From positions 3,806,001 through 3,870,000 of the forward strand of contig NZ_CP036536.1 in NCBI RefSeq assembly GCF_005222225.1: 64,000 nt of DNA. Direction: 5' to 3'. The DNA comes from Salinimonas lutimaris (GTDB lineage: Bacteria > Pseudomonadota > Gammaproteobacteria > Enterobacterales > Alteromonadaceae). The position numbers and the translations under genes are program-made. Position 1 is the first letter of the stretch. Every line of letters begins with the position of its first letter. Below are positions 9,974 through 17,611 of the stretch, piece by piece. The notes below the pieces were generated by a model, which worked only from the letters and a program-made list of their open reading frames with translations, had not been told where the DNA came from and ran no database searches.

Positions 9974-9989
9974 TGGCACGATTTACGCA
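9974..9989 (+). promoter_or_regulatory. Sigma-54 (-24/-12) promoter element upstream of glycosyltransferase gene
   Basis: TGGCACGATTTACGCA matches the RpoN consensus TGGCACGNNNNTTGCW at all of the first seven positions and has GG-N10-GC spacing; positions 12-13 differ. Expected start of transcription is near 10000, giving a leader of about 94 bases before the ATG at 10094. Confidence 0.7.
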
Positions 9990-10093
9990 ACCTCCTCAAC
10001 CGTACTGAATCTGGTACGTAAAAATAGTGACCGCGGTAAACATGGTCCATGCTGGCTGACGCAGTACAAGGCCAGCAGGAATGGGAGATAGCT

Positions 10094-10930
10094 ATGGATC
10101 CACAATTTAGTATTGTTACCATTGTAAAAGAACGCAGCAGGCAGCTGGCCAGTCTGGTACAAAGTCTGGAAAAAACCCGTCTTCGGCCACAGGAACTGAT
10201 TGTTGTCTGGATGACATCCCCCTGCGATGAATCATTGATCAGCAGTGAGGCTTTTTCCGTCCAGCATCGTTTTTTAGCTAATGAATCTGTGCCTGTCCCC
10301 CGGGCCAGAAATAAAGGCATGGCCGCCTGCTCCACCGAACAAATCATTTATCTTGATGTCGACTGTTTGTGCCCGCCGGATTTATTTGAATCCGTGCTGA
10401 CGGAGTTACACGATGGTCAGGTTGTGAGTACACAGGTACGCTTTTTACCCTCCCCGGCACAGACGCAGGATTATGCCACTGCCAGGCAGCATGCTGTGAG
10501 CGCACCGGACGCGGTTGAACTGTTACACAATCAACCCGTCGCCTGGTCTTATTTTCATACCTTGCTATTTGCCATCACCAAAGCGGATTTTATCCGCACC
10601 GGTGGGTTTGATGAGTCATATCATGGTGTGGGGGTAGGTGATATTGATTTTGCTGCCCGCTGTGATGAGCTTGGTTTTGCCCTGGTTATGCTCAAAAACG
10701 ATGTGCTTCACCAGTTTTATCCCGGTGTTGAGCCGCCTGTGCAGCAGCTTTTTGATATTGTGAATAATGCAACCCGCTACAAACAGAAGTGGGGAGAGTA
10801 TCCGCTTCAGGGCTGGTTACAACAGTTTGCCCAAAGCGGCCTGATTAATGACGATTATGAAACCGAAGGATTGCGGGTAAAACGCCTGCCGACTGACGAA
10901 GAAATACAGGCGCAAATGGCACCTGAGTAA
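10094..10930 (+). CDS. Family 2 glycosyltransferase, galactosyltransferase-like C-terminus
   Basis: A 278-residue cytoplasmic GT-A enzyme. The N-terminal SIVTIVKERSRQLASLV strand-helix, YLDVDCLCPPDLF (DVD metal motif) and the C-terminal block GGFDESYHGVGVGDIDFAARC are typical of GT2 enzymes with a Glyco_transf_7C end. It would move a sugar from a nucleotide sugar to a surface glycan; donor and acceptor cannot be told. I chose the ATG at 10094 because GGGAGA lies 7 bp upstream; an earlier ATG at 10049 has no such site. It stands alone, with a sigma-54 element 105-120 bp upstream and a terminator directly after, so it is a single-gene unit. Confidence 0.85.
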   Translation: MDPQFSIVTIVKERSRQLASLVQSLEKTRLRPQELIVVWMTSPCDESLISSEAFSVQHRFLANESVPVPRARNKGMAACSTEQIIYLDVDCLCPPDLFESVLTELHDGQVVSTQVRFLPSPAQTQDYATARQHAVSAPDAVELLHNQPVAWSYFHTLLFAITKADFIRTGGFDESYHGVGVGDIDFAARCDELGFALVMLKNDVLHQFYPGVEPPVQQLFDIVNNATRYKQKWGEYPLQGWLQQFAQSGLINDDYETEGLRVKRLPTDEEIQAQMAPE

Positions 10931-11195: not shown

Positions 11196-12434
11196 TTACT
11201 TACGGCCACTTGTGAAATCAGGATAGGCTTCCAGGCCACACTCACTCATATCCACGCCGTCGAACTCTTCTTCTTCGCTAACCCGGATACCCATGATGGC
11301 TTTAATCACCAACCAGGCCACCAGACTGGTCACAAAGACCCAGACAAAGATGGTGACAGCGCCAAGCAGCTGGCCGCTGAAAGTTGAGTCACTGTTGGTG
11401 ACCGGCACCAGCAACAGACCCAGCAGACCAACCGTACCGTGTACAGAGATAGCACCCACCGGATCGTCAATTTTCATTTTGTCCAGCGCCACGATACTAA
11501 AGACCACCAGCAGGCCACCTAACGCACCAAACAGGGTTGCCTGTAATGCCGTAGGCGTTGACGGCTCAGCAGTAATGGCCACCAGACCAGCCAGCGCACC
11601 GTTGAGTGCCATGGTCAGATCCGCTTTACCAAACATGATACGCGCCAGTAACAGGGCAGCAATTGTACCGCCGGCAGCAGCAGCATTGGTATTCATAAAG
11701 ACGACCGCCACCGAGTTTGCACTTTCCACCGTTGCGGTGGCCAGAACTGAACCACCGTTGAAACCAAACCAGCCCATCCACAGAATAAATGTACCCAGCG
11801 TGGCCAGTGGCAGGTTAGAACCCGGAATCGCATTGATTTTGCCATCGGCGGTGTATTTGCCTTTACGTGCACCCAGAATCAACACACCGGCCAGTGCAGC
11901 AGAGGCACCTGCCATGTGAACAATGCCTGAGCCGGCAAAGTCAGAAAAGCCCATATCACCCAATACGTACATGCCAAATACCGCATCACCGTTCCAGGTC
12001 CAGGCGCCTTCCATTGGATAGATGAAACCGGTCATCACCACGGCAAACAGCAGGAAGGCCCACAGTTTCATACGCTCAGCAACCGCACCAGATACGATGG
12101 ACATAGCTGTGGCCACAAACACCACCTGGAAGAAGAAGTCAGCTGAAGGTGCATAGGTCGCCGGATCTTCTGCGATGCCCGTGGCACCATCTGCCACAAT
12201 ACCATCCAGGAAAATACCGCCACCGTACATGATGTCATAACCACAAATCATGTACATGGTGCAGGCTATCGCGAACAGCGCAACGTTTTTGGTCAGAATT
12301 TCAGTAGTGTTTTTAGCCCGAACCAGACCGGCTTCCAGCATCGCAAAACCCGCTGCCATCCACATGACCAACGCGCCACAAATCAAAAAGTAAAAGGTAT
12401 CTAAGGCGTACCCTAATTCAAAAGTGATTTCCAT
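11196..12434 (-). CDS. amtB: Ammonium transporter
   Basis: A 412-residue Amt/Rh family channel of the inner membrane. About eleven hydrophobic segments are visible; the twin pore histidines lie in VHMAGASAAL and SVHGTVGLLG, and FEFN-type aromatic gate residues occur in GWFGFNGGS. There is no separate cleavable signal; the first segment starts in the N-terminal 25 residues. The gene follows glnK by 29 bp, the standard pair in which the PII protein GlnK blocks AmtB when nitrogen is plentiful. Expression should follow the NtrC/sigma-54 region upstream of glnK. Confidence 0.95.
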   Translation of the reverse strand: MEITFELGYALDTFYFLICGALVMWMAAGFAMLEAGLVRAKNTTEILTKNVALFAIACTMYMICGYDIMYGGGIFLDGIVADGATGIAEDPATYAPSADFFFQVVFVATAMSIVSGAVAERMKLWAFLLFAVVMTGFIYPMEGAWTWNGDAVFGMYVLGDMGFSDFAGSGIVHMAGASAALAGVLILGARKGKYTADGKINAIPGSNLPLATLGTFILWMGWFGFNGGSVLATATVESANSVAVVFMNTNAAAAGGTIAALLLARIMFGKADLTMALNGALAGLVAITAEPSTPTALQATLFGALGGLLVVFSIVALDKMKIDDPVGAISVHGTVGLLGLLLVPVTNSDSTFSGQLLGAVTIFVWVFVTSLVAWLVIKAIMGIRVSEEEEFDGVDMSECGLEAYPDFTSGRK

Positions 12435-12463
12435 TATGGTTTCTCCGCAATTTTTATTATTGG

Positions 12464-12961
<498 letters not shown>

Positions 12962-13871: not shown

Positions 13872-14795
13872 GTGGCCGCGGCCAATTTACTTGCTTTACT
13901 CGATGATATTGCCACCATGCTGGACGACATCTCCGTGATGTCCAAGGTAGCAGCCAAGAAAACAGCTGGGGTACTGGGTGACGACCTGGCGCTTAATGCC
14001 GATCAGGTGCAGGGCGTGCGCGCCGAACGGGAGTTGCCGGTTGTCTGGGCGGTGGCTAAAGGCTCACTGCTTAATAAGGTCATCCTGGTGCCGGCAGCAC
14101 TGATTATCAGTGCATTGTTACCGGTACTTATTACCATTTTTCTGGTTATTGGCGGGCTTTATTTGTGTTATGAGGGCGCCGAAAAAGTGTTGCACCGTTT
14201 TCTTCCCCACGAAGAAACTCCTGACCGGGAAGAGCGGCTGGAAAAACTGAGTCAGCCGGATGTGGATTTAGTTGCGCTGGAAAAGGAAAAAATTAAAGGC
14301 GCCATTCGCACAGATTTTATTTTGTCCGCTGAAATTGTGGTTATCGCTCTGGGTACGGTGATTGAGTCAGATCTTTCCACTCAGATTGGGGTTCTGGTTG
14401 CGCTAAGCCTGGCAATCACTGTGGGCGTGTATGGTCTGGTAGCGGGCATCGTGAAGATGGATGATGTCGGACTGTATCTGCTGCGTAAATCATTAACCGG
14501 CCACTACAATGCTTTTCAGCGTTATACCGGACGGGCTTTGTTAATTGCCGCACCGGCACTGATGAAAGTGCTGGCTCTGGTCGGCACCATAGCCATGTTC
14601 CTGGTGGGCGGAGGCATACTGACTCACAATATTGACATGGTTCACCATCTGGTCGTTCCGGCCATTGAACTTGTAGCCAGTCCTGATACCACTTTATACG
14701 CGGTGGTGGCGATGCTCGCGGACGGCGTTGTAGGACTGATTGCCGGCAGTATAGTCGTACTGTGTGTCACGCTTATCAGCAAACTACGGGGTTGA
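13872..14795 (+). CDS. DUF808 (YedI-like) inner membrane protein
   Basis: A 307-residue protein of the DUF808 family, function unknown. It begins with the typical [40 protein letters not shown] region (split here only by eye) and has about five or six membrane segments, including one cluster near residues 65-100 and several from 145 to the end. GTG start at 13872 with AAGGAAAG upstream at good spacing. It follows the TonB-like gene by 68 bp on the same strand, so they may share a transcript that ends at the terminator just downstream. Confidence 0.85.
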
Positions 14796-14845
14796 ATAAC
14801 CAGATAGAGCGGCCCGGTAGCAGCCGCTTCAGGTTATCTGACATA

Positions 14846-14878
14846 AAGGTGGTCACATTGACCACCTTTTTTATTTTC
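14846..14878 (+). terminator. Rho-independent terminator after DUF808 gene
   Basis: AAGGTGGTCA-CAT-TGACCACCTT, a perfect 10-bp stem with a 3-base loop, then TTTTATTTTC. Confidence 0.88.
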
Positions 14879-15103
14879 TCACCAGATCTTAGTTTGTTTT
14901 TAATAAGCTGAATTTCACACATCGCATGATTTTAAAAAATAAACTTTAATTTCAGTATGTTATAAGTTTCACACCAGCTGGCACATCCCTCGCTTACAAC
15001 CTTTGTATAACCACAAGCGACCAATGCTTTAATCACTATCAGCGATACGTTCATGCCGTACAGACGTTGCCGGTAAATATAAAGTCACACAAAGGGGTAC
15101 ACC
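14879..15103. other. Intergenic region and leader of the small membrane protein gene
   Basis: AT-rich DNA between the DUF808 terminator and the 35-codon gene at 15104. It holds the sigma-54 element at 14979-14994 and a leader of about 100 bases. I see no other ORF or stable hairpin. Confidence 0.5.
14979..14994 (+). promoter_or_regulatory. Sigma-54 promoter element upstream of 35-residue membrane protein gene
   Basis: TGGCACATCCCTCGCT matches TGGCACGNNNNTTGCW except at positions 7 and 13, with exact GG-N10-GC spacing. Transcription would begin near 15005. It is the only promoter-like element I see between two terminators. Confidence 0.68.
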
Positions 15104-15211
15104 ATGATAAGTCACACTGCTGTATTTTTTGCTGCGATGGCACCGTTACTGGCCTTTACCGCCAGTGCACTGATACTGAGCAGTCTGCGCAAAGTGTTAA
15201 GCCGCGTCTGA
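15104..15211 (+). CDS. 35-residue hydrophobic membrane protein
   Basis: A small gene read directly from the sequence: ATG at 15104, TGA at 15209-15211. The product starts MISHTAVFFAAMAPLLAF, has one membrane span (about residues 5-25) and a basic end (SLRKVLSRV), so the C-terminus is probably cytoplasmic. AAAGGGG lies 6-8 bp before the ATG. The gene has its own sigma-54 element about 125 bp upstream and a perfect terminator 45 bp after the stop, which argues strongly for a real one-gene unit. I recognise no family. A leader-peptide or dual-function RNA is an alternative. Confidence 0.7.
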   Translation: MISHTAVFFAAMAPLLAFTASALILSSLRKVLSRV

Positions 15212-15256: not shown

Positions 15257-15291
15257 CCCGGTCAGCGCTGTGCGCTGACCGGGATTTTTTT
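15257..15291 (+). terminator. Rho-independent terminator of the small membrane protein gene
   Basis: CCCGGTCAGCGC-TGT-GCGCTGACCGGG, a perfect 12-bp stem, followed by ATTTTTTT. The T run reaches into the stop codon of the convergent mrcB gene. No T run follows on the minus strand, so it serves the plus-strand transcript. Confidence 0.92.
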
Positions 15292-17611
15292 AGCCAAACC
15301 AGCGATCCCACCAGCTTTTTTCTTTTTTACCGTCCTGCTGCTTCACCGGTTCTCCCCGGCAATCTTTACGTGGTGGCGGCAACACATCCAGAATGGCCGG
15401 CACACTGAGCGAGTCCGGACACCCTGCCACCGTCACTTCACCGGTCTGGCGGTTAAAGTGGGCTATCCCCAGTCCGTTTGGAAAACGGCGCGATAACGAT
15501 TTGGGACTTTGCTGCTTCTGATAATTGATAAATACCGGCAGTGCGCCGCTTGCGCCGGTCAGATTAGTATTGGCATTGTCATCATTGCCTACCCATACAG
15601 TCGACACATTATTGCGGTCAAAACCACTGAACCAGCTGTCGCGGTAATCATCGGTGGTACCGGTTTTGCCTGCCATATTAATATTGGGGAAATGACGAGA
15701 CAGCCGTTGTGCCGTGCCTTCGCGGGTAACTTTATACAACCCATAGTTCAGCAGGTAAGTGGCAGCTTCATCTGCTCGCTGTGAATAGTACTCTGCATGT
15801 TTCCACAGCAGGTTATCCCGCGCTGATACCACCGCATCCACCGTGTGCAGCGGCACATACCGGCCATTATTGGAAATGGTCTGGTACATCTGGTTCATTT
15901 GCAGCGGGGTCATCGACATAGCGCCCAGGGTGAGTGCCGGTACCTTACGCACCGGAACATCACCGGCCAGACGATGAATGGTCTCAATCACCGACTCCAG
16001 TCCCACTTCCATGCCCAGATTCACCGTCGGCACATTTAACGACTCAACCAGACCATTGATCAGTGGCACCTGATCCTGAAACTGCTTGTCATAGTTTTTT
16101 GGCGACCACAGCTTGCCATCCTGACTTTTCAACGTGATGGGCTTGTCTTCTATCGGCGTGGCCAGATTGTACTGCGTCGGATCTTCAAGGGCGGTTAAGT
16201 ACACCGCCGGCTTAATCAGTGACCCCACCTGACGGCGCGCATCCAGTGCCCGGTTAAATCCGTTGTAGCCCGACTCTCTGGCCCCCACAATGGCGCGGAT
16301 TCCGCCACTGCTGATATCTGTCACAACCATCGCCCCTTCCAGTTTGGCGTCACGGTTTTTCTGTAACCCGTCCAGTGTCTGAGTCAGGGCGTCCTCGGCC
16401 CGTCGCTGAGCATAGATATCCAGGGTGGTGAACACCTTAACACCAGAGTCCCGCAAACTGGGATCGGCCAGAATCTCCTTGAGTTCCTGCCGGACCTTCT
16501 GCATATACGCCGGGTGCTTGCCGCTGGCCAGGCTGGCACCGCTGGCCAGTCCCAGTGGCATGTGCACATACTTTTCATACTGGGTACGGTTAATTTCATT
16601 GGCATCAAATAACAACCGCAGGATCAGGTTACGACGCTCCAGCACCCGCTCCGGATGGCGACGGGGATTATAGTAGGAAGGCCCTTTTATCATCGCCACC
16701 AGGGTGGCTATTTCCGGTACATTAAGTTCGTTGGCCGGCCGGTCAAAAAAGAAATAGCTGGCCAGTCCAAACCCGTGCACGGCCATATCGCCATCCTGGG
16801 CCAGAAAAACTTCATTCAGATAAGCCTGCAGAATTTCGGTTTTGCTATATCGGGCATCAATAATGATGGCCATCAGTGCTTCTTTGGCTTTGCGCACAAT
16901 GGACTTTTCTCGTGACAGATACAGGTTTTTCACCAGCTGCTGGGTGAGTGTGCTGCCCCCCTGTACCGTCCGCCCGGCACGCAGGTTGGCAATCAGTGCC
17001 CGCACAATCGACAGCGGAGCAACGCCGTGGTGATCGTAAAAATCACGGTCTTCAACCAGGGTCAGGGTTTTAGGCAGCATGTCAGGAACATTGTCCAGCT
17101 GCACCAGCATGCGATCTTCGCGGGTGCTGCTAACCAGCCGGGTCACCAGCCAGGGCTCCAGCCGCACCGCGCCCACTTCCTGACCTGACGAACGGTCACT
17201 AATTTTGCTGATTCTCTCTCCCTGCCAGCGAATATCCAGGGTACGCTGGGGTTCGGCACCATCGGCAAACTGAAAAGCCCGGCGCACCACCGTCAGCTGG
17301 TTGCCGGTATAGGCATATTCACCACTACTTTTAGGGGCACTGACCTTGCGATAACCCAGCAGCCTAAGCTCTTCAAGCACCTCTTTGGGCGTAATTTCCA
17401 GCGTCCGTTCCAGCGTCAGCGGGCGGGCAAAAATTTGCGCAGGCACCTCCCATTTATTGCCACTGAAGGTGTGCTTGATTTGCGCATCCAGGTAAATCAT
17501 ATACCCGGCCAGTGCAATAACACCGACCAGCGCAAACTTAAGGAAAAAACGAATTACACCGCGCCGGTTTTTTTTTGCTTTTGGTTTCGCTTTGGTTTGT
17601 TTTTGAGCCAC
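15290..17611 (-). CDS. mrcB: Bifunctional penicillin-binding protein 1B
   Basis: A 773-residue class A PBP that polymerises and cross-links peptidoglycan. The order is a short basic cytoplasmic tail, one membrane span (about residues 24-44), a UB2H-like domain, a GT51 glycosyltransferase with catalytic E187 (VEDRDFYDHHG) and the GGSTLTQQLVKN block, and a transpeptidase with S464-LI-K467 (GSLIKPAVYL), SLN in VESLNVPTVN and KTGTTDDYRDSWFSGF. The C-terminus ends in a Cys/Pro/Lys-rich tail. Length matches E. coli PBP1b without its long N-terminus. No lpoB-like gene is seen nearby. The gene is monocistronic here. Confidence 0.94.
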   Translation of the reverse strand: MAQKQTKAKPKAKKNRRGVIRFFLKFALVGVIALAGYMIYLDAQIKHTFSGNKWEVPAQIFARPLTLERTLEITPKEVLEELRLLGYRKVSAPKSSGEYAYTGNQLTVVRRAFQFADGAEPQRTLDIRWQGERISKISDRSSGQEVGAVRLEPWLVTRLVSSTREDRMLVQLDNVPDMLPKTLTLVEDRDFYDHHGVAPLSIVRALIANLRAGRTVQGGSTLTQQLVKNLYLSREKSIVRKAKEALMAIIIDARYSKTEILQAYLNEVFLAQDGDMAVHGFGLASYFFFDRPANELNVPEIATLVAMIKGPSYYNPRRHPERVLERRNLILRLLFDANEINRTQYEKYVHMPLGLASGASLASGKHPAYMQKVRQELKEILADPSLRDSGVKVFTTLDIYAQRRAEDALTQTLDGLQKNRDAKLEGAMVVTDISSGGIRAIVGARESGYNGFNRALDARRQVGSLIKPAVYLTALEDPTQYNLATPIEDKPITLKSQDGKLWSPKNYDKQFQDQVPLINGLVESLNVPTVNLGMEVGLESVIETIHRLAGDVPVRKVPALTLGAMSMTPLQMNQMYQTISNNGRYVPLHTVDAVVSARDNLLWKHAEYYSQRADEAATYLLNYGLYKVTREGTAQRLSRHFPNINMAGKTGTTDDYRDSWFSGFDRNNVSTVWVGNDDNANTNLTGASGALPVFINYQKQQSPKSLSRRFPNGLGIAHFNRQTGEVTVAGCPDSLSVPAILDVLPPPRKDCRGEPVKQQDGKKEKSWWDRWFG

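Follow-up and report, generated by a model that had tools for sequence, protein, structure and literature searches.

A 35-residue membrane microprotein of Salinimonas lutimaris, most likely a Psp-associated product of an orphan PspF/sigma-54 unit

Between a DUF808 gene and mrcB, the chromosome of Salinimonas lutimaris carries a reading frame of only 35 residues (MISHTAVFFAAMAPLLAFTASALILSSLRKVLSRV), starting at an ATG. Is this a gene, and if so, what would switch it on and where might its product act? We examined these questions within a window of 64,000 nucleotides, the whole stretch of DNA analysed, and in related genomes. The frame and its surroundings are arranged as follows.

13872–14795, plus strand: DUF808 gene, the upstream neighbour, on the same strand as the small ORF
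15091–15097, plus strand: ribosome-binding site AAAGGGG, by sequence, six bases before the ATG
15104–15211, plus strand: gene of the 35-residue membrane microprotein, at a locus shared by 57 of the 60 genus genomes, pN/pS 0.12
15290–17611, minus strand: mrcB (PBP1b), the convergent downstream neighbour

The names DUF808 and PBP1b are our reading of the sequences rather than the outcome of a family search, and are presumed here. We took the region downstream of the DUF808 gene in every one of the genus's 60 genomes. In 57 of them a short ORF of the same kind lies between the DUF808 gene and mrcB, mostly 35–40 residues long and up to 59. The DUF808–mrcB synteny is broken in the remaining three, with no mrcB within the 3.1 kb fetched. 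Frame and start are conserved, and the non-coding flanks diverge. pN was below pS in 180 of 180 moderately diverged pairs, and pN/pS was 0.12 over 20 independent pairs (Fisher p = 2e-77). Substitutions at codon positions 1, 2 and 3 numbered 830, 203 and 2476, respectively, a third-position excess. At the position matching AAAGGGG, the relatives mostly have purine-rich, Shine-Dalgarno-like stretches. The ORF at 15104–15211 is a real protein-coding gene under strong purifying selection. An earlier note had claimed as much for this small, undescribed gene and its AAAGGGG ribosome site, and both claims stand; neither loss of the frame nor conservation at the RNA level only was found.

The same note placed the gene between two terminators, and hairpins are present on both sides.

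14845–14869, plus strand: terminator-like hairpin of the upstream DUF808 gene, 11-bp stem, then TTTATTTT
15257–15283, plus strand: intrinsic terminator of the small ORF, 12-bp stem with 10 G–C pairs, then ATTTTTTT

Terminator-like matches overall are at chance in the region (3 found versus 2.8 expected), and the long stems belong to these two. A compact transcript with a strong terminator would also suit a small regulatory RNA in which the ORF is incidental, and in E. coli the sRNA gene pspH lies just after pspG. However, an RNA-level function does not account for the low pN/pS, the third-position excess, the conserved frame and start or the diverging non-coding flanks, and the small RNA was rejected on this codon-level constraint; its probability is negligible. 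The 3′ hairpin also speaks against it, since conservation of the terminator, a comparison suggested in the earlier note, was not borne out: by a strict test, a perfect-stem terminator within 160 bp 3′ of the small ORF occurs in only 3 of the 57 genomes.

AlphaFold2 models the protein as a single helix spanning residues 4–34 (pLDDT 95). Its N-terminus carries a charge of 0 and its short basic C-terminal tail a charge of +3, which agrees with the one membrane span and basic tail described before. For an uncharged N-terminus and a basic tail, the positive-inside rule predicts an N-out/C-in orientation. By this model the product is a single-helix inner-membrane protein, and its insertion and topology would follow from the same features. 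Across 33 aligned members Pro14 never varies and Ala17 hardly does. Four small proteins and the secreted proteins discussed below gave nothing credible when scanned against Pfam and NCBIfam, nor did 32 microprotein members against Pfam. Neither library, as searched, has a family for the microprotein.

The upstream region contains a candidate promoter and an accompanying site.

14950–14962, plus strand: IHF-like site TTTCAGTATGTTA, one mismatch to the consensus WATCARNNNNTTR
14979–14993, plus strand: sigma-54 −24/−12 element TGGCACATCCCTCGC, with TGGCAC and GC invariant in 57/57 genomes

An element of the TGGCACATCCCTCGC type alone is at chance (1 found versus 1.14 expected per 64 kb), and therefore only comparison across relatives could decide whether it is meaningful. 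TGGCAC-N5-T(C/A)GC is found upstream of the small ORF in all 57 genomes, at distances of 69 to 505 bp. TGGCAC, the T at +11 and the GC at +13/+14 are invariant throughout, with most flanking columns about 40–70% conserved. This invariance bears out the claim that the gene has its own sigma-54 promoter, from which transcription would be expected to start near 15005. The strict pattern TGGCACANCNNTCGCW occurs exactly twice in the window genome, and its second copy precedes the gene of a secreted protein directly ahead of pspA2–pspC2. Columns −27 to −17 before the promoter, where the IHF-like site lies, keep TCAA....TTA across the 57 genomes (T.79, C.86, A.95 ... T.88, T.84, A.86). Elsewhere in the window, a sigma-54-like site, TGGCACGATTTACGCA (9974–9989), lies 60 bp before a glycosyltransferase-like gene (10049–10930). 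A simple scan found no strong sigma-54 site at the amtB and glnK (P-II) pair on the minus strand (11196–12952).

Further upstream, two palindromes are candidate activator sites.

14849–14865, plus strand: putative PspF activator site (UAS) GTGGTCACATTGACCAC, palindromic, 17 bp, 130 bp upstream of the −24 element
14880–14893, plus strand: possible second activator palindrome CACCAGATCTTAGT, seen by eye in promoter-aligned upstream regions

The palindrome at 14849–14865 matches a PspF-type activator site and is a putative one, and such a site lies at −130 to −133 in 49 of the 57 genomes. TTAGTCATTTCGACCAA stands upstream in the genus's classical pspA promoters, from which a first PWM was built. 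It scored the small-gene promoters at a median of 11.6 versus 5.6 in shuffles (p = 1e-29), with 74% of the 57 genomes above the 95% shuffle quantile. The window site is among the weaker ones and falls below that quantile with the first PWM; this weakness and the coincidence of the site with a terminator stem count against PspF control. A second PWM was refined only on 94 pspA2/secreted-gene promoters of other genomes, and with it 57 of 57 small-gene promoters exceed the 95% shuffle quantile (median 20.2 versus 0.45). It scores the window site GTGGTCACATTGACCAC at 12.6 (p = 0.007 against 2000 shuffles of the region) and recovers the E. coli sites TTAGTGTAATTCGCTAA (pspA) and GTAGTCAAATTCACCAC (pspG), the latter equal to the window UAS at 14 of 17 bases. 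The pspF of the window genome reaches 549.6 bits against TIGR02974 (cut-off 443.55), and PspF is present in 196 of 197 genomes of the family. As for the possible second palindrome, relatives show CACYAAATTTTRGTG at about the same distance, again by eye. In the window, the stem of the DUF808-gene terminator (14845–14869) is the same inverted repeat as the presumed PspF site; in relatives the activator motif is kept at the terminator-stem position and the arms differ.

The window genome encodes further sigma-54 activators besides PspF, among them PrsR, the regulator of PEP-CTERM genes. PrsR could drive this sigma-54 promoter instead: it is present in 60 of 60 genomes of the genus (TIGR02915, above cut-off), and the PEP-CTERM/PrsK–PrsR regulon, as described in PMC1569441, likewise has sigma-54 promoters before short single-gene units. 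However, the PrsR motif published there closes with TTTACA some 63 nt ahead of the sigma-54 promoter (PMC1569441), and the window promoter lacks TTTACA, which 5 of the 57 genomes have, only this end of the motif being compared, whereas all 57 have the PspF-type palindrome. Pattern scans revealed no PEP-CTERM-like tail among the ORFs of the 64-kb window, and none of the 33 aligned microprotein members has a PEP motif. In one genome (G012) the prsR match contains two stops, yet both the small gene and its promoter remain intact. Control by PrsR is thus quite improbable. The co-control with a PEP-CTERM gene that the earlier note had proposed is unsupported, with neither a PEP-CTERM ORF in the window nor TTTACA at the promoter; the envelope role that it had drawn from this is probable. 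The activator site instead matches PspF sites, and homologues lie in psp loci. The prsR match in G012 (G012:C2:186465-187496) holds only from position 99 onward, with both stops in frame, and the matches in the other genus genomes listed have none.

The second copy of the strict promoter pattern leads to a second psp locus of the window genome, psp2, which lacks pspB.

L127:237-3011 (G000:C1 around 752,000): psp2 locus, in the order dusA – secreted gene – (small gene) – pspA2 – pspC2
L127:1570-1860 and L003:1217-1486: secreted-protein genes, with the TGGCAC..TCGC promoter type shared with the small gene

In the window genome itself the order is dusA – secreted gene – pspA2 – pspC2. The psp2 pair matches PF04012 (PspA) and PF04024 (PspC), without reaching the NCBIfam equivalog cut-offs for PspA and PspC, and the adjacent dusA is an NCBIfam equivalog. 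The classical pspF/pspA-pspB-pspC locus lies elsewhere in the genome, its PspF and PspB scoring above the equivalog cut-offs. In E. coli, the PspF-controlled pspG likewise follows dusA, the position of psp2 in this family. The psp2 loci L187–L244 show two classes of sigma-54 promoter within a single regulon, with a −12 box of TCGC for secreted and small genes and of TTGT(A) for pspA2.

A profile of the small protein has members in 50 of 197 genomes and 17 of 52 genera of the family, and an order-wide search of 296 genomes turned up none beyond the family at E ≤ 0.001; with only 39 positions, the profile may have overlooked distant members. Most of the members inspected in other genera are either arranged as dusA – secreted – small – pspA2 – pspC2 or placed immediately ahead of pspA2. 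Three loci (L290, L291, L299) have no dusA, secreted or psp neighbours in the stretch fetched. Eight genomes of the window's genus also have the small gene at psp2. This distribution bears on a further explanation, that the microprotein is a small subunit of the neighbouring DUF808 protein or of PBP1b and not a Psp component. The constant position between the two genes across the genus would fit such a subunit. However, mrcB is convergent and the small ORF has its own promoter; moreover, the psp2 copies in the eight genomes and the psp2 position of most homologues in other genera, away from DUF808 and mrcB, make a subunit of either neighbour very unlikely.

The secreted protein usually accompanies the small gene. 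It has about 90–100 residues (~95) and no credible Pfam match; its fold was modelled at low confidence (pLDDT 60), with no structural match below E = 2.8, and the model was set aside. At the mrcB locus its gene lies between promoter and small ORF in 38 of 57 genomes, ending shortly before the ATG. The remaining 19 genomes, the window genome among them, lack it at this position. In the window species the microprotein gene stands beside mrcB, and the gene of its secreted partner belongs to psp2; this separation counts against the Psp reading. The secreted protein is likely a periplasmic partner of the microprotein. The simplest reading is that the two form a cassette of the pspB-less psp2, and that a copy of this cassette stands at the mrcB locus in the window's genus under its own PspF/sigma-54 promoter.

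Could the microprotein replace the PspB that psp2 lacks? In a sharper form of the Psp reading it would be a drastically shortened PspB, with the N-out, PspC-pairing helix kept and the coiled-coil tail lost. In four genomes of two other genera (L293, L294, L301, L302) pspA2 and pspC2 flank the small gene, which takes the normal position of pspB; this is not so in the window's genus, where it precedes pspA2 or stands alone. The remaining pspA2–pspC2 pairs leave no room for pspB in between. PspB has a single N-terminal transmembrane helix, N-out/C-in; the same is predicted for the microprotein, and both helices contain a proline. In a profile alignment the two helices pair with P = 0.002. However, 16 of 200 column-shuffled PspB helices align equally well, so that the match is no better than column shuffles and was rejected as homology, and the HH probability is only 9–13%. 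The microprotein has no significant sequence similarity to PspB and no Pfam match to it (PF06667), carries a short basic tail in place of the coiled coil, and occurs beside a genuine, intact pspB in the classical operon of the window genome. The microprotein may or may not descend from PspB, and we regard a shortened PspB as possible but doubtful.

Comparison with other Psp proteins is also informative. According to PMC9239133, pspG is the sole PspF target known in E. coli beyond the psp operon itself. The present gene would resemble it as an orphan sigma-54/PspF target encoding a small inner-membrane protein, and the likeness extends to the activator site and to the place after dusA, which pspG shares with the psp2 cluster. 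In contrast, PspG has 80 residues and two predicted helices (PMC2763126). The microprotein was rejected as a PspG with its 35 residues, less than half that length, its one helix and no match to PF09583 in 32 of 32 members at E ≤ 10. LiaI, PspM and similar proteins, as described in PMC11237479, are likewise lineage-specific membrane proteins tied to a PspA homologue; their regulators and lineages differ, and the microprotein was compared with them only through Pfam/NCBIfam scans.

The gene most likely belongs, as an orphan, to the PspF/sigma-54 regulon of the phage-shock (Psp) response to membrane damage and encodes an undescribed membrane microprotein associated with the Psp system, because its promoter is conserved, a PspF-type site lies upstream, its homologues occur in psp loci and E. 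coli pspG follows dusA. Coding capacity, promoter conservation, the PspF-type site, the presence of pspF and the linkage of homologues to pspA2–pspC2 were computed directly. We give a probability of about 0.8 to this explanation as a whole, a PspF/sigma-54-controlled Psp microprotein that is most plausibly a small partner of PspC2/PspA2. Upon inner-membrane stress, PspA would release PspF, which would bind the palindrome at 14849–14865. IHF would bend the DNA at about 14950–14962, and sigma-54 RNA polymerase would fire from 14979–14993; the transcript, about 280 nt long, would end at 15257–15283. The product would be one transmembrane helix with the conserved proline, N-out/C-in, its basic tail in the cytoplasm, and would probably join the inner-membrane PspC/PspA assembly. 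Position and topology point most plausibly to PspC2/PspA2 of the second psp locus as the partner, with a functional link to the ~95-residue secreted protein whose gene usually precedes the small gene. From genomic context we infer a helper of PspC2/PspA2 or of the secreted protein, induced by stress and acting on the membrane. More tentatively, it may be a minimal PspB-replacing microprotein of a pspB-less Psp system, in which the periplasmic ~95-residue protein and the one-helix peptide signal envelope damage to PspC2/PspA2 and the mrcB-locus cassette copy has become an independent PspF-controlled unit in the window's genus.

In their main texts, two broad genomic surveys of Psp systems make no mention of Alteromonas-type bacteria. 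For this short ORF, regulon membership could be argued from DNA alone. It brings to light an unannotated microprotein family, with a secreted partner, linked across a bacterial family to PspF, PspA and PspC. The family is a concrete addition, open to test, to a stress response in which the sensing step is still poorly understood.
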